A DNA stretch of 47,783 bases from Gemmatimonadota bacterium (GTDB taxonomy: Bacteria > Gemmatimonadota > Gemmatimonadetes > Gemmatimonadales > Gemmatimonadaceae). The position numbers were made by a program, and so were the translations under genes. Of the stretch, positions 19,936 through 34,116 are shown piece after piece. The stretch is taken from contig JAJPIS010000121.1 in the NCBI GenBank assembly GCA_021324635.1, positions 1-47,783 on the forward strand, given 5' to 3'. Each line of letters opens with the position of its first letter. Positions within the stretch are counted from its first letter, which is position 1. Below the pieces are notes generated by a model. It saw nothing but the letters and a program-made list of their open reading frames with translations, was not told where the DNA came from and ran no database searches.

Positions 19936-20126
19936 GGTGCAGGGGCAATGCGCAACGCGCATTGCCCTGGACCATCCAAAACCGCCGTTCCGTTGGTGGC
20001 CGCGGGGCGCGGACCGCGTGCAACGCCGGGTCAGGCATTTGCGCGGGATGCCACGCGCGGCGTGACATGCCGGGCCAGGCATCGGTGCGGGATGCGCACA
20101 GCGGGCGGCATGAATGCCGCCCCTAC
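19936..20126 (+). repeat. Modular palindromic element, copy 1
   Basis: Left module: an imperfect hairpin at 19936-19973, with arms built on CAGGGGCAATGCGC and GCGCATTGCCCTGG. It is followed by CATCCAAAACCGCCGTTCCG and TGGTGGCCGCGGGGCGCGGA. Right module: GGCATCGGTGCGGGATGCG, then the perfect palindrome GGGCGGCATGAATGCCGCCC and CTACGA. The same order occurs at 21923-22073 and, inverted, at 32574-32722. Confidence 0.8.
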
Positions 20127-24787: not shown

Positions 24788-26962
24788 ATGCGCCCATTCC
24801 GTTCATCCAGACGCTCGCCGACCCGACCCGCCGGGTGCGCGTACGCACTCGCGCACGCATCCGCGCGCCCGAGTGCGCGCCGCGGGTCGGCCGTCTTCGT
24901 CGTGATGATCATGACGGTCGCGCTCGCCGCGCTCGCGGGGTCGGCGGTGCTGCTCACCTCGGGTGCGCGTCTCGTCTCCAACTACCACAATCAGGAGCGT
25001 GACCTGCGCTACGGGGGGGAGGCGGCGCTCCAGGATGGGATCAGCGATCTCACGAACAATCCCTACGTGCTGCCGGACAGCGGCTACGTCCAGATCGCCA
25101 GCAACGCGCAGCTCGTGGCCGCGGACGCCGCGCCGGTCCCCGGGGTCGTCTACGATCTCTTCGCCGGCCCGACCGGCGCGGCCTCGCAGCAGCGCGGCCG
25201 CTTCGTGACGCTGGTCGCGATCGCCAAGGATACCACCCGCAAGCGGCAATTCGTGCGGCGCGTGGAGCTCAATCAGGAGACGTTCGCGCGCTTCGCCTAC
25301 TTCTCGGTGACCGAGAATGGGATCTGCTTCGGCTCCAACGACCGCCTCAACGGGCCGGTGTTCTCCGACGACGTGATCACGACGTGCGGCTCGCCCCAGA
25401 AGGCCGACTTCATGGACTCGGTGTGGACGCCGCAGACCTTCGTGAACGGCAATCCGGGGGCCGACACGCTCTACAAGGGCTGGACGAAGGTCGCCAAGCC
25501 GCTCCAGCTCCCGAGCACGGCCAAGCTGGCGGGGCTCTACCCGATCGCGGCCGCGTCGCAGACCGAGTTCTTCACGCCCAACACGGCGGCCGACTCGCTC
25601 TCGGTGGTCAAGTCCCGCCTCGAGTTCGATGCGTACGATCTCAACGCCGACGGTGACAGCACGCAGGCCGGCGAAGGGTTCGTGAAGTTCTACCAGGTGG
25701 ACGAGGCCACCAAGTCGCTCGTCCCGCCGCCCGCCGGCACCTGGACGGCCGCGCAGCGCGACTCGGTCGCGAGCAGCTACCTCCGCTCGGGCCTCACGCG
25801 CCAGCACGACGGCAACAACTGCGGCGAGTTCCGCGAGGTCCGCAACGACGCCGGCACGCTGGAGTGGGAGTTCTTCCCGATGGCGGTGCACCGGACGACG
25901 TGGTACAAGACGATCGTCGCCGACGCGACGGGCGCCGGGGTCCCGGCCGCCGTCTCGGCCGCCAACGCCCTCGAGGCGACGGGCGCGCACCCGCAGGCGG
26001 ACACGGTCTCCCTCACCTGGGTCGCCAAGCACCCGGCGCGCAACGGCGATCCCTCGCACCCGCCACGCTGCTACGCGGGCGGCGACCCGCATCTGGTGGC
26101 GATCGAACGGGACACCTCGGCGGCGGCGCCGCTGCGCGACACCGGCTACTGGGCCCCCGCGGGCTGGACGTACGGCCGGCGCGGTGGCACCGACACGACG
26201 TTCACCGGCGGCGATCCGCTCGACCCCGGGCACCCGACGCGTATGGGACACTGGCAGCGCTGGCCCGGCGCGACCCCGGCGGCGTTCACGCCGGCGTTCA
26301 AGGCCGCCCATCCCGATTGGGCCTACCTCTTCCCGATCGACAAGACGTACAACTCGACGTTCCGCGGCGTGGTCGCCGTGCACGGGTCGGTCGGCGTCAG
26401 CGGGAACGTGCAGGGCCACATCACGATGTACTCGGACGGCAGCATCGGCGTCGTCGACAACCTGCGGCTCACCAACGACGCCGACACGGCCTGCCAGCAC
26501 CTCATGGGGATGGTCGCCGGGCGCTACATCCTCCCGATGGACAACGGCATCAACGTCCCGGCGGGCGACAATACGACGCGCCTCAACATGCGTGGCGGGT
26601 CGAGCGACCTGTGGGTCGAGTCGACGGTCTTTGCGCTCCAGTCGTGGGGCGTCGAGGGTCTCGTGCCGGATCCGGGCACGCTCTTCGTCCCGCTCCAGCA
26701 GCCGTGCAGCGGGCAGAACTACGCCCGCGGCTGCCTCTTCGTTCAGGGGAGCATCATCCAGGACGCCCGCCACACGGTGAACGGCGGCAACGGCACCACG
26801 ACCGGCTTCGGCTACGCCAAGCGCTACAACTACGACAACTGCTCGGTCGTCAACCCGCTCCCGTTCTTCCCGACGACGGGGCGCTTCACCATCAACGACT
26901 ACTACGAGAGCGACCCCGTCCACTTCAGCGTCGCTGCCCTCTTCGCGGCCCTCAAACCCTAG
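24788..26962 (+). CDS. Large PilX-like pilus assembly protein
   Basis: 724 residues with a basic N-terminal 35 residues, then one membrane helix, RGSAVFVVMIMTVALAALAGSAVLLTSG, and ARLVSNYHNQERDLRYGGEAALQDGI. This arrangement resembles the PilX/PilX_N family that follows PilV and PilW in minor-pilin operons. Known PilX proteins are mostly under 250 residues, so this is a greatly extended form. The extracellular part is Asn/Asp/Gly-rich with several cysteines and a segment like a beta-solenoid or bactofilin-style repeat (GVVAVHGSVGVSGNVQGHITMYSDGSIGVVDNLRLTND). I assign it to pilus assembly on gene order. It converges on the DUF4384-like gene; the two stop codons share the palindrome CTAG. Confidence 0.65.
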   Translation: MRPFRSSRRSPTRPAGCAYALAHASARPSARRGSAVFVVMIMTVALAALAGSAVLLTSGARLVSNYHNQERDLRYGGEAALQDGISDLTNNPYVLPDSGYVQIASNAQLVAADAAPVPGVVYDLFAGPTGAASQQRGRFVTLVAIAKDTTRKRQFVRRVELNQETFARFAYFSVTENGICFGSNDRLNGPVFSDDVITTCGSPQKADFMDSVWTPQTFVNGNPGADTLYKGWTKVAKPLQLPSTAKLAGLYPIAAASQTEFFTPNTAADSLSVVKSRLEFDAYDLNADGDSTQAGEGFVKFYQVDEATKSLVPPPAGTWTAAQRDSVASSYLRSGLTRQHDGNNCGEFREVRNDAGTLEWEFFPMAVHRTTWYKTIVADATGAGVPAAVSAANALEATGAHPQADTVSLTWVAKHPARNGDPSHPPRCYAGGDPHLVAIERDTSAAAPLRDTGYWAPAGWTYGRRGGTDTTFTGGDPLDPGHPTRMGHWQRWPGATPAAFTPAFKAAHPDWAYLFPIDKTYNSTFRGVVAVHGSVGVSGNVQGHITMYSDGSIGVVDNLRLTNDADTACQHLMGMVAGRYILPMDNGINVPAGDNTTRLNMRGGSSDLWVESTVFALQSWGVEGLVPDPGTLFVPLQQPCSGQNYARGCLFVQGSIIQDARHTVNGGNGTTTGFGYAKRYNYDNCSVVNPLPFFPTTGRFTINDYYESDPVHFSVAALFAALKP

Positions 26963-28044
26963 ACCCCGCGCGGCCCGTGCCCGTCGCCGTGTGACTCGCC
27001 GTGCGGCTCGCTGTGCGACTCGCCGTGTGACTCACCGTGTGACTCCCCGCGCCCGGCATCGCCGTGCGCGGGGCGCGGCGGCCGCGGCTCGGGTCTCGGG
27101 GCGTCGTGGCCCCCGGCCGGCGGCGGCGCGGGCGGCGAGTCACCACCCGCCCTCGGCGCGCGCCGTCCGCTCGCCGCGGGCCCGACGAGGATGACGCCAC
27201 TGCCCGCGCCCCGGCTCCCGATGACCGCCGCGCCCGCCGCTCGGTCGTAGTACGGCCCGGGCCACCGCGGCCAGAGCCACCACGGACCACCCGGCCACTG
27301 CCACGGCCCTGGCCACCACGGACCCACGGGGCCGAGGCTCGGCGGCTCGGGGGGCGCGGGCGGCGCGGGCGCGGCGGGCGGGGGAGGGGCCGAATCGATC
27401 CCGGGCATCGAGGCGACGGCGGATGTCTCGACGCCGGCGGATCGGTCGATGGCGAAGCGCACGATGTCGTAATCGAAGCGACCCGTCGCCAGTGTCTCGA
27501 CGAAGGTCGTCAGCGCGGTCTCGATGTGGGCGGCGCCGGCGCCGCCGGATTCCGCGCCGCCGGCGATGCGCGGCACGACTCGGTAGTCCCAGTGCCCGTT
27601 GACGGCGATCGGGTCGACGGCGAACGGCCGCGCGGAGATGGCGGCGTACCAGGTCCCGCTGCCGCTCGAGTCCTCGACGGTGAACGCGTCGGCCGAGCCG
27701 CGTTGGCGCACGGCGATGTCGGTGTCGCCGGGCACCGGCTCCGGCCGCTCGGGCGGGTCGAGCGGATAGGCGACGTCGACGTGCCCGTCCGGCTGCGCGT
27801 AGAGCACCAGCAAGTACCCGGCGCGGCCGACGTGGACGCGCACATGCCCATGGGCGCCCGGCGCGTACCGCGACCGGTCGAGGTAGAGCCGCACCGGCAC
27901 GTCGGGCGCGGCTGCGGGCGCGGCTGCGGGCGCGGCCGCGGGCGCGGCCGCGGGCGCGGCTGCGGGCGCGACGTGCCGTCCCCCGGGCCCGCCCACAGCG
28001 CCGAGCCCGGCGGCGATCGCGGTCACGACCGGCAGGATGGACAT
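26959..28044 (-). CDS. Secreted DUF4384-like protein with Trp/Pro- and His-rich tail
   Basis: 361 residues with a signal peptide (MSILPVVTAIAAGLGAVG). A repeat of PAAA units (12-bp DNA repeat) links it to a beta-rich domain, VRLYLDRSRYAPGAHGHVRVHVGRAGYLLVLYAQPDGHVDVAYPLDPP, which resembles DUF4384. The domain extends to about residue 210. After a proline-rich linker comes a striking stretch of W, P, G and Y (near PWWPGPWQWPGG). The C-terminal 30 residues repeat ESHG/EPHG units and hold many histidines. I prefer the ATG at 28044, since it starts directly with the signal peptide and has CCGGAG 7 nt upstream. Last of the sigma/anti-sigma gene set on this strand. Confidence 0.65.
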   Translation of the reverse strand: MSILPVVTAIAAGLGAVGGPGGRHVAPAAAPAAAPAAAPAAAPAAAPDVPVRLYLDRSRYAPGAHGHVRVHVGRAGYLLVLYAQPDGHVDVAYPLDPPERPEPVPGDTDIAVRQRGSADAFTVEDSSGSGTWYAAISARPFAVDPIAVNGHWDYRVVPRIAGGAESGGAGAAHIETALTTFVETLATGRFDYDIVRFAIDRSAGVETSAVASMPGIDSAPPPPAAPAPPAPPEPPSLGPVGPWWPGPWQWPGGPWWLWPRWPGPYYDRAAGAAVIGSRGAGSGVILVGPAASGRRAPRAGGDSPPAPPPAGGHDAPRPEPRPPRPAHGDAGRGESHGESHGESHSEPHGESHGDGHGPRGV

Positions 28045-28130
28045 GCGCGACTCCGGGCGACGTGTGCCCTGTCCTACCCCGAGCCGGCGGCCGTGAGCCA
28101 CCGCGAGCGCGGGCCGGCCGGTCGCGCGGT

Positions 28131-28182
28131 TGTGGGGGGAGGTGGGGGGGGTGGGGGGGTGGGGAGTGGGGGGTGGGGGGTG
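28131..28182 (+). repeat. G-rich tract between anti-sigma and DUF4384-like genes
   Basis: A run of G blocks separated by single T or A bases (GGGGGGAGGTGGGGGGGGTG and onward) fills the 150-bp gap between two minus-strand genes. For their transcription the G-rich strand is the template. It meets the simple G-quadruplex pattern several times over. Confidence 0.8.
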
Positions 28183-28194
28183 CCGTCCTGCGGG

Positions 28195-29214
28195 CTACCG
28201 GCCGGCGAGCGGGATCACGTACACGCCGTCGGGTCCCGGAGGCGATCCGGTCACGATGGTGGTGCCGCCCTCGCCCGACCGCTCGAACACCGCCCGGCCG
28301 GACACCCGCACGACCACGTTGGGGACATCGCGCGCCGGCGGGAGCGTGACGTCGTAGCTGAGCCCGGACGCCGCCGTCCCGCGATTGTCGATCACGATCG
28401 TGTCGCGTCCGACTGTGTAGTCGGCGCCGTCGCCGCTCGCGAGGACAGAGAGGTGCGGGTCGGTCCCGGCCCGTACCCGGATCACTCCCGACGGCTGCGC
28501 GCCGCGGAACAGCACGGCGACACGCACGTTGCTCCCCGCGCCACCCGTCGGCACGACGGCGACCCCGCGCGGGGCGGCTGCCACGAGCGATCCTCCGGTG
28601 CCGCCGGCCGTGCCCGCCGGCGTGGGGCGGTCGGCGGCATGCCGTCCGCCGAGCACCTGCGCGACGAATCGGCGCACCGGGGAGCGCGGGACGGCTGCCG
28701 CCGCGACCGCGGCTCCGACGGCGAGCAGGATCGCCCCGCGCCGCACGGCCGAGGTTCCGCGCCTGCCGCCGCCTCCCTCTCCGCTCACACTGCGGCCTCT
28801 CCACCCGCTCGGCCAGCGGCCGGCCGGACCCCGGACGCCGCTCGACCGACCCTTGCCATCCAGCGCCCGCGCGCCGACCCCGCCGACCCCGCCGACCCCG
28901 CCGACCCCGCCGACCCCGCCGACCCCGCCGACCCCGCCGACCCCGATCGTCCGATCCGGGTGCGCGTCCACCCGGGCGGGGTCGCGCGCCGCGGACTGGG
29001 CGGCGCGGGCGCGGATCGATGCCAGATCGGCGGCCGCCACGGGCCGGTCCAGTAGCCGCAGCCACTCGCCCGTTTCGGCGTCGGCGGTCCGTGCGGATTC
29101 GAGTGCCGCCGCGCAGGCCGCGCACGCGGCCGCGTGGGCCCGTGCCGCCGCTCCGCGGTCCCCGCCGCCCGCCGGGTCGAGCGCGGCACCCAGCTCCGCG
29201 TCAGTGAGATGCAT
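28195..29214 (-). CDS. Zinc-finger anti-sigma factor, membrane-anchored
   Basis: 339 residues. The N-terminal domain MHLTDAELGAALDP...ARAHAAACAACAAALES has the HxxxCxxC pattern of zf-HC2 anti-sigma domains, which hold the sigma factor in the cytoplasm. A long repeat of VGG (eight 9-bp DNA units) follows near residue 95. A single transmembrane helix (RRGAILLAVGAAVAAAAVP) and a periplasmic beta-rich domain come next, ending YDVTLPPARDVPNVVVRVSGRAVF. The ATG at 29214 overlaps the end of the sigma-factor gene by 14 bp, the usual coupling of an ECF sigma/anti-sigma pair. The periplasmic ligand is unknown. Confidence 0.8.
   Translation of the reverse strand: MHLTDAELGAALDPAGGGDRGAAARAHAAACAACAAALESARTADAETGEWLRLLDRPVAAADLASIRARAAQSAARDPARVDAHPDRTIGVGGVGGVGGVGGVGGVGGVGGVGARALDGKGRSSGVRGPAGRWPSGWRGRSVSGEGGGGRRGTSAVRRGAILLAVGAAVAAAAVPRSPVRRFVAQVLGGRHAADRPTPAGTAGGTGGSLVAAAPRGVAVVPTGGAGSNVRVAVLFRGAQPSGVIRVRAGTDPHLSVLASGDGADYTVGRDTIVIDNRGTAASGLSYDVTLPPARDVPNVVVRVSGRAVFERSGEGGTTIVTGSPPGPDGVYVIPLAGR
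28873..28944 (+). repeat. 9-bp tandem repeat GCCGACCCC inside the anti-sigma gene
   Basis: Eight perfect 9-bp units. On the coding (minus) strand they encode a VGG repeat between the zinc-finger domain and the membrane helix. In-frame copy-number change would lengthen or shorten that linker. Confidence 0.9.
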
Positions 29215-29857
29215 CGACCGACTCCGGGCTCGCCAGGTGCGCTCCTCGTCCTGTCCCTGCGCCGCTCCCGCCGCCGCTCCCGCCGCCGCTCCCGCCGCCG
29301 GCCCGCTCGTCCGCGTCGCCGGCCACCGCCTGCCGAAAGGCCCGCGTCGCGCGCACGAGCAGGGTCCCGACGCTCCCTTCGGCGACGCCGATGCTGTGCG
29401 CGAGCTCGCGATAGCTGTAGCCCTCGTGCCGCAGGAGCAGCAACTGGCGGTCGCGGAGCGGCAGGGCATCGAGCGCCGCCCGCACTCGCGTCCGGGTCTC
29501 GCTCGACACCAGCTCGGCGTCCGCGCGCGGCGGCTCACCCGGTGCCGGCGCGTCGCCGGCGCGTCGCGTCACCAGCTCTGTCCGGCGCCGCCGTTGGCGC
29601 CGGTCATCCCGGAACAGATTCGTCGCCACTGTCGTGAGCCATGCCTGAGGATCGTCGGGCAAGGCGCCGCGTCGATACAACCGCACGAAGGTCTCCTGTG
29701 CCAGATCGGCCGCCGCGTCGGGATCGTCCGTCAATCGGACGAGGTACCGGACGAGTGACCGGAACCGCGCATGGAAGAGGGCGGCCACCGCGTCCGCGAA
29801 CGCGCCATCCGTGGGGCCGTCACCGCGCAACGGGCCTCCGTCTCCGTCTTCCCGCAC
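29201..29857 (-). CDS. ECF-type RNA polymerase sigma factor
   Basis: Sigma-70 family, extracytoplasmic-function type, about 218 residues. Region 2 is ALFHARFRSLVRYLVRLTDDPDAAADLAQETFVRLYRR. Region 4 is LDALPLRDRQLLLLRHEGYSYRELAHSIGVAEGSVGTLLVRATRAFR, a clear helix-turn-helix for -35 recognition. The C-terminus is a GGGS repeat encoded by 12-bp DNA units. There is no ATG close to region 2 in frame. GTG at 29857 (VREDGDGG) is the best start, although further upstream starts remain possible. It begins 39 nt after the TonB receptor gene ends and is coupled to the anti-sigma gene. Confidence 0.85.
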   Translation of the reverse strand: MREDGDGGPLRGDGPTDGAFADAVAALFHARFRSLVRYLVRLTDDPDAAADLAQETFVRLYRRGALPDDPQAWLTTVATNLFRDDRRQRRRRTELVTRRAGDAPAPGEPPRADAELVSSETRTRVRAALDALPLRDRQLLLLRHEGYSYRELAHSIGVAEGSVGTLLVRATRAFRQAVAGDADERAGGGSGGGSGGGSGAGTGRGAHLASPESVDASH

Positions 29858-29895
29858 CCATGATGAGCGGCTGAGCGCCGCCGCGTGTGACAGCG

Positions 29896-32592
29896 CTAGT
29901 ACGCCCAGCTCACCCCGAGCATGACACTCCGGGGGAGGAGCGTGATGGCACGCGTCGGCATGCCCGACGGTCCGGGGACAAATCCGGCGACGTTCGCGTG
30001 GTCGAAGACGTTGGCCACGGTCAGGTACGTGCCCAGCCGGCCGCCACCCGTCCCGACGGGCCACTGCCGGATCAACTCGAGGTCGACGCGAAGGTAGGGT
30101 GGGAGATGGTCGGTCGCGGCCCAGGACGCGATCGTGTGGTCACCGCCGGGGGCGGGGCTGGGTGTCGGGGTGGGGCTGGGCGTCGGAGTCGGGGTGGTGA
30201 CCGGGCCCGGCGTCGGAGGGGGCGTGGGGGAGGGCGTCCCGCTCTCGTCGTACTCGTGCCCGATCCCGCTCCCCGGCATCGTCGGCAGCCGCTGCCCGGT
30301 CGCCGCCCACCCGGCGAGGCGGAGCTGCGTCGCGCGCTCGATCCGGACCGACGCCGCGGCCGTCACCGTCTGGCCCAGCTCCGAGGCGGGGTGGTAGGCC
30401 ACGCCTTCGATCGATTCCACCGTGCTCCCGAGGCCGTAGGCCGCCTGCCAGGTGAGCGGGCCGGCCGCTCCGTCCAGCTCCGCCGCGAATCCGCTCACGC
30501 GCGCCGACGCGACGGAGAAGTCCCGGGTGGCGAACAGTTGGTCGCCGTACCGATCCGCCATCGCGAGCCCGGACAACCGCCGCGCGTAGCCGTCGACCGT
30601 CAGACGCGCGGCACCGCCGAGTCGGGCCGTGACCCCGACGGTCGCGGCGTCGCTCTGCGCCACCGGGACGCCGCCGACCCCGGCGGCGACCGGCAGATCG
30701 ATCCCGAGCTGCGCCCCGATCGGCGAGCACATGTTTCGCAGCGACTGCACGAACTGATGCGTGCGCGCCAGCCCGGCGGTCGCGATCACGCCGGGCGCCA
30801 GCCGCAACGACGCCGTGAGGCGCGGCTCCAGCCGGGCCGTCGTGCCGGCCAGCGCGCTCGCGCGGAGCCCCGGCGTGATGCTCCACCCGCTGTCGCCCGT
30901 GCCACCACTCCAGCGGCGCTCGGCGAAGGCCGCGAGCACGACAGGCGAGGCCGCGAGGTGGAGCGGCGCGGCACTGGCCGCCGCCGGTCCGTATTCCCCT
31001 CCGGTCGCGGCCGCGCCCGCGCCCGGGCTTCCCGCCGTCTGCGCCGCCGATGCCGCCGGCACGGGCGCCAGCGCCGTCCCGACGTCGACCTGGTACCGCA
31101 CGCGCATCGCATCGACGCTCACGCCGGCCGTCATCTCCGACGCCTTCCCCCACCAGAGCTGCGTGCTCGCCTCCGCCTGCCGCACGCCGTTGTCGAGCGT
31201 CGTGAGCGCTGGCAGCGCCAGCGATGGCGTCGACGATGGGGCCGACCCGACCGCTGCGCCGGGCACCGCTCCGGTCGTCCACGCGCCCGGCCCGGCCGCC
31301 GAGCGTGCGCTCTCCCGCGTGCCGAAGTCGGCGCCGGCCAGGTGCGACTCGAGCCGCGCGGTGGGCGAGACCACCTGGTCCCAGACGAGGCCGATCGTCG
31401 CCGTGTGCCAGGGGACCCGTTGCCCGCTCAGCGCGCCGCCGGTCGCCAGCACATCGGCCGGCGCCGCGTCGTCGGCGCTCCCGATCGCGACGACGCGGAG
31501 CGTCGAGCGGCCGGTCGCCAGGGTCGCGGTGGCGATGCCGTCATCCCAGCGGTCGCGCAGCGGTCCGTGATCGCCCGTGAGCGTGGGAATCGCGCCGTCG
31601 CTGTGGCGGGCGGCGACCATGACGCTCCCGACGGCGCCGCCGAGGAGGAACGGGCTCCCCGCGAGCGCCCGTGCGGCGCCGGGTCCCGTCCCGGTGGTGA
31701 ACGCGCGGCCGGTGGCCAGCGGCTCACGCGTCTGGATGTCGAGCACTCCGGCCAGACGGTCGCCGAGGGCGGCGGGCATCGCGCCGTCGTAGAGCGTGAC
31801 AGTCCCGACGGCGTCGGGGTCGATCGCGCCGAGCGCGTCGCCGGCGTGCACGGGGCTCCAGACGGGGAGCCCGTCGACGCGGACCTGCAGCTGGTCGGCG
31901 CCGCTGCCGCGGTCGGTTGCCGTCGGCCAGTCCGGCCGCATCCCGACGTGCGGGTCGCCGGCGAGGAGCCGCAGGACATCGGGCTCCCCGGTCGCCGTCG
32001 CCGCGTCGGCCGCGTCGCCGCGCCACTGCCAGCTGTCCACCCCGCCCGCCGCGCCGGCCGCCGGTCCGGTGTGAGTCCCGCCGGCCGCCGTCACGTGGAC
32101 GGAATCGAGGACCGCGAGCGACGGCGCGAGCGACACCATCTGGGCGGGCGACAGCGTGAAGTCGACCCGGACGGCGCCGTGCGCCGGCAGTGCGACCTGG
32201 AGCACCAGCGTGTCGAAGCCGGCCCGGGTGACGCGGACGTCGGCGAGGCCGGGGCCGAGCCCGGTGAGCACGTACCGGCCGGTGCTATCCGACCAGGTGG
32301 CCCGGGCGCCCCCGGCCGTCGCGTCGATGGCGACCCGGGCGTCGGCGAGCCCCGCGCGCACGGCGCCGCTCTGCACCGTCCCGTACAGTGTGCCCGGCGC
32401 CGTCGTATCCGGCGCCACGGCATTGGTGTCCGCCCGGCCCACGACGGTATGGGTGTCGGATCGACCCGCGTCGGCGACCGCCATCGCGTGCGCCGAGGGG
32501 CCCGCGAGCGCGACCAGTACCAGCGCCGCGGTCGCCGCGCGCGCGATGCGATCCGCGCGCCCCCCCCGCGTCGTCGTAGGGGCGGCATTCAT
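29896..32592 (-). CDS. TonB-dependent outer-membrane receptor with regulatory-like N-domain
   Basis: 898 residues. A signal peptide (ATAALVLVALAGPSAHA) precedes a carboxypeptidase-regulatory-like beta domain, LYGTVQSGAVRAGLADARVAIDA...WSDSTGRYVLTGLGPGLADVRVTRAGFDTLVLQ. A plug-like region follows (LQVRVDGLPVWSP...GALGAIDPDAVGTVTLYDGAMPAALGDRLAGVLDIQTRE), then a beta-barrel ending in SVMLGVSWAY, with the typical aromatic C-terminus. A Pro/Thr repeat of about 30 residues interrupts the barrel near residues 780-820. The only sensible start, ATG at 32592, lies inside palindromic element copy 4. No TonB box was identified. Directly upstream of the sigma factor on the same strand, so it may be part of the same transcript or signal chain. 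Confidence 0.8.
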   Translation of the reverse strand: MNAAPTTTRGGRADRIARAATAALVLVALAGPSAHAMAVADAGRSDTHTVVGRADTNAVAPDTTAPGTLYGTVQSGAVRAGLADARVAIDATAGGARATWSDSTGRYVLTGLGPGLADVRVTRAGFDTLVLQVALPAHGAVRVDFTLSPAQMVSLAPSLAVLDSVHVTAAGGTHTGPAAGAAGGVDSWQWRGDAADAATATGEPDVLRLLAGDPHVGMRPDWPTATDRGSGADQLQVRVDGLPVWSPVHAGDALGAIDPDAVGTVTLYDGAMPAALGDRLAGVLDIQTREPLATGRAFTTGTGPGAARALAGSPFLLGGAVGSVMVAARHSDGAIPTLTGDHGPLRDRWDDGIATATLATGRSTLRVVAIGSADDAAPADVLATGGALSGQRVPWHTATIGLVWDQVVSPTARLESHLAGADFGTRESARSAAGPGAWTTGAVPGAAVGSAPSSTPSLALPALTTLDNGVRQAEASTQLWWGKASEMTAGVSVDAMRVRYQVDVGTALAPVPAASAAQTAGSPGAGAAATGGEYGPAAASAAPLHLAASPVVLAAFAERRWSGGTGDSGWSITPGLRASALAGTTARLEPRLTASLRLAPGVIATAGLARTHQFVQSLRNMCSPIGAQLGIDLPVAAGVGGVPVAQSDAATVGVTARLGGAARLTVDGYARRLSGLAMADRYGDQLFATRDFSVASARVSGFAAELDGAAGPLTWQAAYGLGSTVESIEGVAYHPASELGQTVTAAASVRIERATQLRLAGWAATGQRLPTMPGSGIGHEYDESGTPSPTPPPTPGPVTTPTPTPSPTPTPSPAPGGDHTIASWAATDHLPPYLRVDLELIRQWPVGTGGGRLGTYLTVANVFDHANVAGFVPGPSGMPTRAITLLPRSVMLGVSWAY

Positions 32593-32722
32593 GCCGCCCG
32601 CGACTCGCATCCCACACGGATGCCCGGCCCGGCATTTCGTCCCCCGCATCCCGCGGACGCCAAAGGAACGGGATTTTTTGGATGGTACCAGGGGCAATCG
32701 CTCCGCGATTGCCCCTGGTACC
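32574..32722 (-). repeat. Modular palindromic element, copy 4 (inverted)
   Basis: Read on the minus strand: a 39-nt hairpin (32722-32684) with arms GGTACCAGGGGCAATCG and its complement, then ATCCAAAAAATCCCGTTCC, a GCGTCCGCGGGATGCG-like box, GGCATCCGTGTGGGATGCG, and the palindrome GGGCGGCATGAATGCCGCCC with CTACGA. The ATGAATGCCGCCCCTACG part provides the first codons of the TonB receptor. Confidence 0.85.
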
Positions 32723-32862
32723 GCGACCGGCACCGACCGGGCGGGATGGTGGGCCCGTCGTGGCGGTGCGGGCGCGCGTGTGGGGGCGTGGATGCCCGCG
32801 GCGCCGGGAACGACGGGCGGGATGATGGTGTCGTGGGCGCCGGCCAACGTGCGCGCCCCGTC

Positions 32863-32965
32863 GTAGGGGCGGCATTCATGCCGCCCGCGACCCGCATCCC
32901 GCACCGATGCCGTTCGGCATTCATGCCGCCCGCGACCCGCATCCCGCACCGATGCCGGGCGGCAT
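32863..32965 (-). repeat. Two extra right-module palindromes of the dispersed element
   Basis: GTAGGGGCGGCATTCATGCCGCCCGCGACCCGCATCCCGCACCGATGCC-type sequence occurs at 32863-32909. A near copy lacking the first bases is at 32911-32954, so the unit is tandemly duplicated. A third degenerate palindrome (GGGCGGCATGCAGGCCGCCC) closes the array. Confidence 0.8.
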
Positions 32966-33103
32966 GCAGGCCGCCCACCGGTCTGCGCACCGGGGTGCGC
33001 ATCGCGACGCGTCAGGGAACCGTCAACCAGGTGCCGCCGAGATGCCATGTCCGCCGTGGTCGTCGTTGCGTTGTCGATCCGTCGTCGACACGTCGCTCGC
33101 CCC

Positions 33104-33250
33104 GCACCCGCGCTTCGCACCCGCGCTTCGCACCCGCGCTTCGCACCCGCGCTTCGCACCCGCGCCCCGCACCCGCACCCCGCACGCGCACCCCGCACGC
33201 GCGCCCCGCACGCGCGCCCCGCACGCGCGCCCCGCACGCGCACGTCGCAC
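33104..33250 (+). repeat. 13-bp minisatellite in intergenic DNA
   Basis: Four units of CGCACCCGCGCTT pass into about seven units of the related CGCGCCCCGCACG with a 13-bp period. No coding constraint is needed to explain it, since 13 is not a multiple of three and no supported gene covers it. Confidence 0.85.
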
Positions 33251-33717
33251 GGGCGCCACTCACGCCCGCTGCCAGAGATACCCCGCTCGCCGGCGAAGTA
33301 GTCCCCGCCTGTATGGACGGAAACGCATCGCGGGCGGGGGCGCCAGGGGCGACTGGACGTGCAGGGCGCGCGCCACGCGGTCTGGCACACATTCCTGCCA
33401 CGGGGGCGGGGCGGGCCGCGGTGAGGCCCGGGGACGGCCACCGTGCCAGACAGGGTGACGGCTCCGTGCCGGCCGCCGTGACGGCTCCCTGCCCGCCGCC
33501 GTGATGCCCACCGTCCCGGCCGCGGTGAGGGCACCGTGTTGGCCGCGCCCCGCCGTGGCCGCCAGCGGCGGGCGCCCCGGGGCGGCCGTGGCGCTTACCC
33601 CGCCCCTCTAGACATTCGCCCCAAAGTGGATGCCCCGACCGGGCGGAGGTGCGACGTTGAGGTCGCGACGGCGGGGAAGCCGTCCCGGCAGCAACCTTTC
33701 GCTCATGGAGTGATACT

Positions 33718-34116
33718 GTGCGCTCACGGTTCAGAGGTCTCGCGCTCGCGGCAACGGCGGTGGCAGTCGCCACGGCAGCCGCGTGCAGCAGCAGCACGAG
33801 TCCCAACGGTGGTGGTGGCGGCGGCACCGGCGGCCACGCCACGACGATCGTCGCCAGCTCGACGACCAGCGGTGGCTCGTACGGCGGCGGCGGCAACTAC
33901 TTCTTCAACCCGACGCCCGATACGGTCGCGGTCGGATCGACGGTGAGCTGGCAGTTCGGCAGCGTCGGCCACAACGTGATCTTCCAGACCGCGGGCGCGC
34001 CGGCCAACATCTCGGTGACCAGCAACAGCACGGTCTCCCGGACGTTCCCGACCGCCGGCACGTACAACTACACCTGCACGATCCACGGCTTCAGCGGCGT
34101 GCTCGTCGTGAAGTGA
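33718..34116 (+). CDS. Plastocyanin/azurin-like (cupredoxin) lipoprotein
   Basis: 132 residues. A lipoprotein signal peptide ends at a lipobox-like AAAC (about residue 23), followed by a Ser/Gly-rich tether. The cupredoxin fold is marked by NYFFNPTPDTVAVGSTVSWQF, GHNVIFQ (first His ligand) and YNYTCTIHGFSGVLVV (Cys and second His ligands in C-x2-H). The axial methionine usually a few residues after that His is absent; Phe occupies the nearest position. The GTG start at 33718 has GGAG about 8 nt upstream. It would act as a small periplasmic or surface electron carrier or copper-binding protein. It stands alone between divergent and co-directional loci. Confidence 0.8.
   Translation: MRSRFRGLALAATAVAVATAAACSSSTSPNGGGGGGTGGHATTIVASSTTSGGSYGGGGNYFFNPTPDTVAVGSTVSWQFGSVGHNVIFQTAGAPANISVTSNSTVSRTFPTAGTYNYTCTIHGFSGVLVVK

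Follow-up and report, generated by a model that had tools for sequence, protein, structure and literature searches.

The three-gene cassette formed by the TonB-dependent receptor, the ECF sigma factor and the class I anti-sigma factor of the window (the whole 47,783-nucleotide stretch analysed, contig JAJPIS010000121.1) was shown, by comparison of gene neighbourhoods, to be inherited as a unit throughout Gemmatimonadota, with either gene order. The cassette is rather likely to be a trans-envelope regulatory system in which the receptor would signal via the anti-sigma factor to the sigma factor. The initial annotation had proposed a four-gene module with a DUF4384-like protein, and the phylum-wide search showed a conserved three-gene cassette instead; judged by its neighbourhoods in related genomes, the DUF4384-like gene is a species-specific addition outside that cassette. 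Gemmatimonadota is a poorly studied phylum whose signalling biochemistry is very little known, and among the papers searched none joined Gemmatimonadetes, ECF sigma factors and TonB.

The four genes occupy 26959-32592 on the minus strand and are transcribed in the order receptor, sigma factor, anti-sigma factor, DUF4384-like protein. This confirmed the ORFs of the initial annotation, which had described four same-facing genes with short or overlapping junctions. The features are as follows.

29896..32592, minus strand: TonB-dependent receptor, 898 aa, with signal peptide, CarboxypepD_reg domain, plug and TonB-receptor barrel
29865..29892, minus strand: predicted ECF-type promoter TGTCACA-N17-GCTC, between the receptor stop and the sigma start
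29201..29857, minus strand: ECF sigma factor, 218 aa, GTG start, regions 2 and 4, GGGS tail
28195..29214, minus strand: class I (zinc-motif) anti-sigma factor with one TM helix and a periplasmic all-beta domain
26959..28044, minus strand: DUF4384-like secreted protein, a lineage-specific downstream neighbour

The receptor and sigma genes are separated by a 38-bp spacer, the sigma and anti-sigma genes overlap by 14 bp, and a 150-bp gap precedes the DUF4384-like gene, which shares its last 4 bp with the end of a convergent gene on the plus strand. No sigma-70-type promoter or terminator was found between the genes, and the predicted fold of the 150-bp gap was less stable than those of shuffled sequences. 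The gap also contains a G-run (period 7-10, 28132-28182) of possibly variable length.

Relatives of the receptor, sigma and anti-sigma genes were found to coincide in two genomes of the same genus, and likewise in several genera belonging to two families. When a profile of the anti-sigma factor alone was searched against 395 genomes of the phylum and 60 neighbourhoods were fetched around the matches, a directly adjacent, same-strand TonB receptor was present at 56 of 58 sigma and anti-sigma pairs (29 receptor-first, 26 sigma-first and one with both). The profile had been built from eight loci, and with these left out for an unbiased count the receptor was adjacent at 48 of 50 pairs, in agreement with the initial grouping of the three genes. 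Gene order tracked the sigma tree, in which the long-spacer receptor-first cassettes, including that of the window, formed one clade (SH-aLRT 98); the receptor-first order noted initially is thus a conserved, monophyletic arrangement. Apart from Gemmatimonadota MAGs, the named genomes bearing the cassette were represented by one contig labelled Candidatus Eisenbacteria and one labelled Candidatus Krumholzibacteriia (L228 and L229, both with the motif described below), and the cassettes on these two contigs may represent transfer, shared ancestry or misbinning.

The window receptor matched the Pfam families CarboxypepD_reg (E=6e-11) and Plug (E=1e-4), corresponding to an N-terminal beta-sandwich (residues 67-142) and a plug (residues 187-302) followed by the barrel. 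Its AlphaFold (AF2) model was that of a TonB-dependent transporter, matching PirA, FepA, BtuB and FpvA with E down to 5e-22, and only the small CarboxypepD_reg-type beta-sandwich stood ahead of the plug. Among 48 cassette receptors, CarboxypepD_reg was found in 44 and an STN domain (E<=0.01) in none. A CarboxypepD_reg domain ahead of the plug is shared with the SusC-like receptors of Bacteroidota, but the signalling members of that group carry STN and a FecR-type anti-sigma factor, and the cassette has neither. The window sigma factor was matched by Pfam to sigma-70 regions 2 and 4 only, followed by the GGGS tail, with no fused C-terminal regulatory domain of the ECF41 type.

The window anti-sigma factor by itself gave no Pfam match. 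It has an H27-x3-C31-x2-C34 motif and one TM helix (about 157-175), and the Hx3Cx2C motif was found in 49 of 58 anti-sigma factors, zf-HC2 in 32 of 50, and FecR or DUF4880 in none of 50. With PDB profile matches to DdvA (2e-5), RsiW and ChrR, the cassette anti-sigma factor is assigned on sequence to the zinc-type class I; its periplasmic part is a beta domain. The class I (ASDI/ZAS) systems RsiW-SigW, ChrR-SigE and DdvA share with it the helical Hx3Cx2C domain, the sigma and anti-sigma overlap and the membrane location. The cassette differs in the constant presence of a neighbouring TonB receptor and in a periplasmic beta domain outside any Pfam family. Some cassette anti-sigma factors are also without zinc ligands, as has been reported for members of class I (PMC7406223). 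A few (L044:6379-7029, L058:6548-7174, L091:1292-1915) are without the whole zinc-type helical bundle and have only a cytoplasmic segment of about 40 residues with a conserved LLxxLDxPVPP-like (ELLxxLDxPVPP) motif.

The periplasmic all-beta domain (residues about 212-337) was modelled confidently (pLDDT about 88), and its fold search returned weak putative adhesin (DUF2807/4097-like) matches (Foldseek E 0.07-0.16, VIA Z 2.2-4.6). Nothing exceeded Z 5, and the missing FecR/PupR match carries no weight. After correction for sigma distance, this domain still co-varied with the receptor (partial r 0.29-0.40, versus 0.12-0.19 for the cytoplasmic part); the effect is modest, and domain length and noise account for part of it.

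The search for a common promoter motif, proposed in the initial annotation, was successful. The bipartite motif GTCA-N18-CGTT was present upstream of 23 of 25 sigma-first cassettes, versus 5 of 245 background upstream regions. The initial motif search upstream of receptor-first cassettes yielded little, and the motif emerged there on scanning the receptor-sigma spacers: it was exact in 18 of 25 long spacers, 0 of 10 short spacers and 4 of 372 background spacers (Fisher p=5e-22), and at five of nine loci that had not been part of the training set. With the matrix from the sigma-first sites, the best match in the whole window was at 29892-29865 on the minus strand, beginning 3 bp past the stop codon of the receptor gene and 36 bp ahead of the sigma start. 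The pattern TGTCACA-N16-17-GYTC matched once in the window (0.01 expected) and ten times in the three genomes of the genus; five of these matches were at cassettes and all intergenic (one in G000, two each in G001 and G002), and the other five were inside genes. The -10 half of the window site is GCTC and not the commoner GTTC, which weighs against the regulatory reading. A conserved bipartite ECF-type promoter motif is thereby shown, as a sequence pattern, to precede the overlapping sigma and anti-sigma genes, and in the window clade it stands between receptor and sigma. A further point against that reading is that the predicted promoter of this clade is downstream of the receptor, which may therefore be outside the sigma regulon. 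In the short-spacer receptor-first cassettes, the region ahead of the receptor seems to contain a variant motif, TGTCAGAA...CGTT.

Further copies of the motif were shown to stand before partner genes next to the cassette, making these genes predicted local targets. In 13 cassettes the neighbour is a Rieske redox operon, which encodes a pair of membrane proteins, one of them DUF2214/CopD-like, together with one or two apparently Tat-exported Rieske proteins. The motif was found ahead of its first gene in seven genomes (G001, G002, G009, G033, G069, G206 and G309), and in four more cassettes the operon directly follows the anti-sigma gene; for redox operons with no cassette alongside (L093, L094, L096-L100), a motif match was found in one of seven. 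A family of secreted proteins of about 240 aa adjoins eleven other cassettes, two of these having longer, related proteins. The motif before these genes was exact for 8 of 12 copies versus 6 of 462 controls (p=2e-11), and under loose matching present for 11 of 12 versus 13 of 462. No cassette had both the redox operon and a gene of this family. The window genome yielded no relatives of the two redox membrane proteins. The redox target of its cassette has thus been lost or was never present, and loss is the likelier because both sister species have the operon. With the operon absent, the self-promoter is the only strict intergenic site left in this genome.

The redox operon itself is distributed Gemmatimonadaceae-wide (L042:10102-11806, L045:12305-14340, L094, L097 and others) and comprises an 'HRIGSY' membrane protein, the DUF2214/CopD-like 4TM protein and the Rieske protein(s), with no catalytic subunit nearby. 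The family of about 240 aa, secreted or lipoprotein and without a Pfam match (L049:5946-6677, L158, L174, L156 and others), adjoins cassettes that have no redox operon, usually with the ECF motif ahead.

In the proposed mechanism, the N-terminal zinc-type domain of the anti-sigma factor would hold the sigma factor at the inner membrane. Substrate binding or transport would cause a change at the receptor that would be relayed through the periplasm, probably by the CarboxypepD_reg domain or the plug, to the beta domain of the anti-sigma factor. The anti-sigma factor would then lose its activity, probably through regulated proteolysis, and release the sigma factor to transcribe the operon that encodes it and the neighbouring partner genes. 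FecA/FoxA-type systems signal by STN domain contact (PMC9249621, PMC11637429); the cassette has no STN-STN interface, which counts against the proposed step from receptor to anti-sigma factor. The resemblance to FecI-FecR-FecA cell-surface signalling (CSS) lies in the TonB receptor, the single-pass inner-membrane anti-sigma factor with a periplasmic domain, the ECF sigma factor, the adjacency of the genes and the local targets. The cassette differs from it in having CarboxypepD_reg in place of STN, a zinc-type class I domain with another beta domain rather than DUF4880/FecR/STN, and, in the window, the receptor first with the promoter inside the cassette. The best reading of these features is that the cassette works like cell-surface signalling yet fails two defining features of FecIRA, the STN receptor and the FecR-type anti-sigma factor. 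Because STN and FecR are absent and the receptor shows co-variation with the beta domain, the preferred reading is a CSS-like system that uses another periplasmic contact. Close to an even call, and accordingly put forward tentatively, is the broader proposal of a second, independently built trans-envelope TonB signalling, from CarboxypepD_reg (or plug) to a class I anti-sigma beta domain, without STN or FecR, phylum-wide and with exchangeable local targets. If the receptor does signal to the anti-sigma factor, TonB receptors can control sigma factors even where the STN and FecR parts considered to define such systems are missing. With its promoter motif and a regulon that is small and local, the cassette is open to direct testing, and the Rieske redox operon of Gemmatimonadota gains a likely regulator and a transport context.

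The main rival to the CSS-like reading is that the receptor is an output rather than a sensor, the anti-sigma factor sensing the envelope or redox state itself and the sigma factor controlling the receptor and partner genes. This is consistent with the absence of STN or FecR from any of about 50 pairs, with the general knowledge that membrane-bound zinc-type anti-sigma factors usually sense without a receptor, with the location of the receptor within the autoregulated operon of sigma-first cassettes, and with the redox proteins encoded by partner genes. It was deemed somewhat unlikely, however, as the promoter of the long-spacer clade excludes the receptor, which nevertheless stays adjacent, and as co-variation links the receptor to the beta domain of the anti-sigma factor. 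That the receptor merely neighbours an unrelated sigma and anti-sigma pair by chance could be imagined from the number of TonB receptors in the phylum, but is refuted, with next to no probability left to it, by the adjacency at 48 of 50 unbiased pairs and by the other ECF and anti-sigma pairs of related genomes (L087-L090), which have no receptor.

An improbable alternative is that the TGTCACA motif is served by another sigma factor of the genome, such as a true ECF41, and that the cassette sigma factor is a target and not the driver. The published ECF41 signature, TGTCACA-N16-CGTC with targets limited to neighbouring genes (PMC3426412), is nearly identical to the cassette motif TGTCACA-N16/17-G(C/T)TC, the -35 half being the same, the -10 half and spacer slightly different and the targets likewise local. 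Motif position and variants nevertheless track the cassette's own sigma clades, and both genome-wide matches in G001 fall in the cassette. ECF41 factors have a fused C-terminal regulatory domain and COE targets, whereas the cassette sigma factor is without that domain and is paired with a separate membrane anti-sigma factor.

The remaining alternative, a four-gene envelope-sensing module with the DUF4384-like protein as signal input, is largely refuted and very improbable. It would fit the same-strand position 150 bp downstream, and a DUF4384 gene was also found three genes after the anti-sigma gene in G038. However, the window and G038 are the only 2 of 29 receptor-first cassettes with such a gene downstream, and no ECF motif was found ahead of the DUF4384-like gene. 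The protein is only a weak relative of Pfam PF14326 (E=2.5e-4, 21.5 bits versus a gathering score of 27), and its closest relatives in two sister species (57% and 51% identity) are on other contigs, where both orthologues adjoin a glycosyltransferase and hpnH in a hopanoid-gene locus. The matching locus of the window genome contains no DUF4384 gene, and the gene probably moved to its present place in the window lineage. Its earlier placement as a module member does not stand, given the orthologues elsewhere, and a secreted signal input was not supported. The initial annotation had also considered that related genomes might keep sigma, anti-sigma and DUF4384 without the receptor; the outcome was the opposite, the receptor being kept and DUF4384 not. 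A shared role for DUF4384 in the cassette was rejected on the location of the sister orthologues and the missing motif. Being directly downstream, the gene may be read from the sigma self-promoter.

The in-frame repeats reported initially for each of the four genes were all confirmed with TRF.

30149-30224, minus strand: Pro/Thr repeat in a disordered barrel loop of the receptor (residues 766-832)
29260-29300, minus strand: GGGS-coding repeat at the sigma C-terminus
28872-28945, minus strand: VGG-coding 9-bp repeat, 8.2 copies, 100% identical, in the cytoplasmic linker of the anti-sigma factor
27903-27970, minus strand: PAAA-coding repeat in the DUF4384-like protein
26984-27066, minus strand: His-rich (GESH) repeat at the DUF4384-like C-terminus

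The GGGS and VGG tracts were missing from every relative aligned and are therefore private to the window species. In a background of 450 kb of the window genome (389 genes), comparable arrays were found in 14% of genes, and the period was divisible by three in 78 of 83 coding arrays versus 40 of 79 intergenic ones; from this contrast, the period of three is attributed to selection on the reading frame. Four array-bearing genes in a row occurred once in 320 four-gene windows versus 0.13 expected, but this run was picked post hoc, and the clustering exceeds chance only weakly. The repeats, once taken as a common feature of the module, are thus species-private tracts in a genome where period-3 arrays are common in genes.

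Several further elements were observed around the receptor start. The palindrome GGGCGGCATTCATGCCGCCC occurs at 32580-32599, 32867-32886 and 20103-20122, with 10 matches on both strands in 402 kb of genome sampled; as the receptor ATG (32592) is inside one copy, the start of the receptor gene seems derived from a dispersed repeat. Upstream of the receptor are a near-perfect hairpin, ACCAGGGGCAATCGC/GCGATTGCCCCTGGT (32680-32730, folding z = -5.0), and an intergenic 13-bp tandem array of 13.5 copies (33094-33269). Divergent from the receptor, a plus-strand gene at 33718-34116 encodes a plastocyanin/azurin-like cupredoxin.
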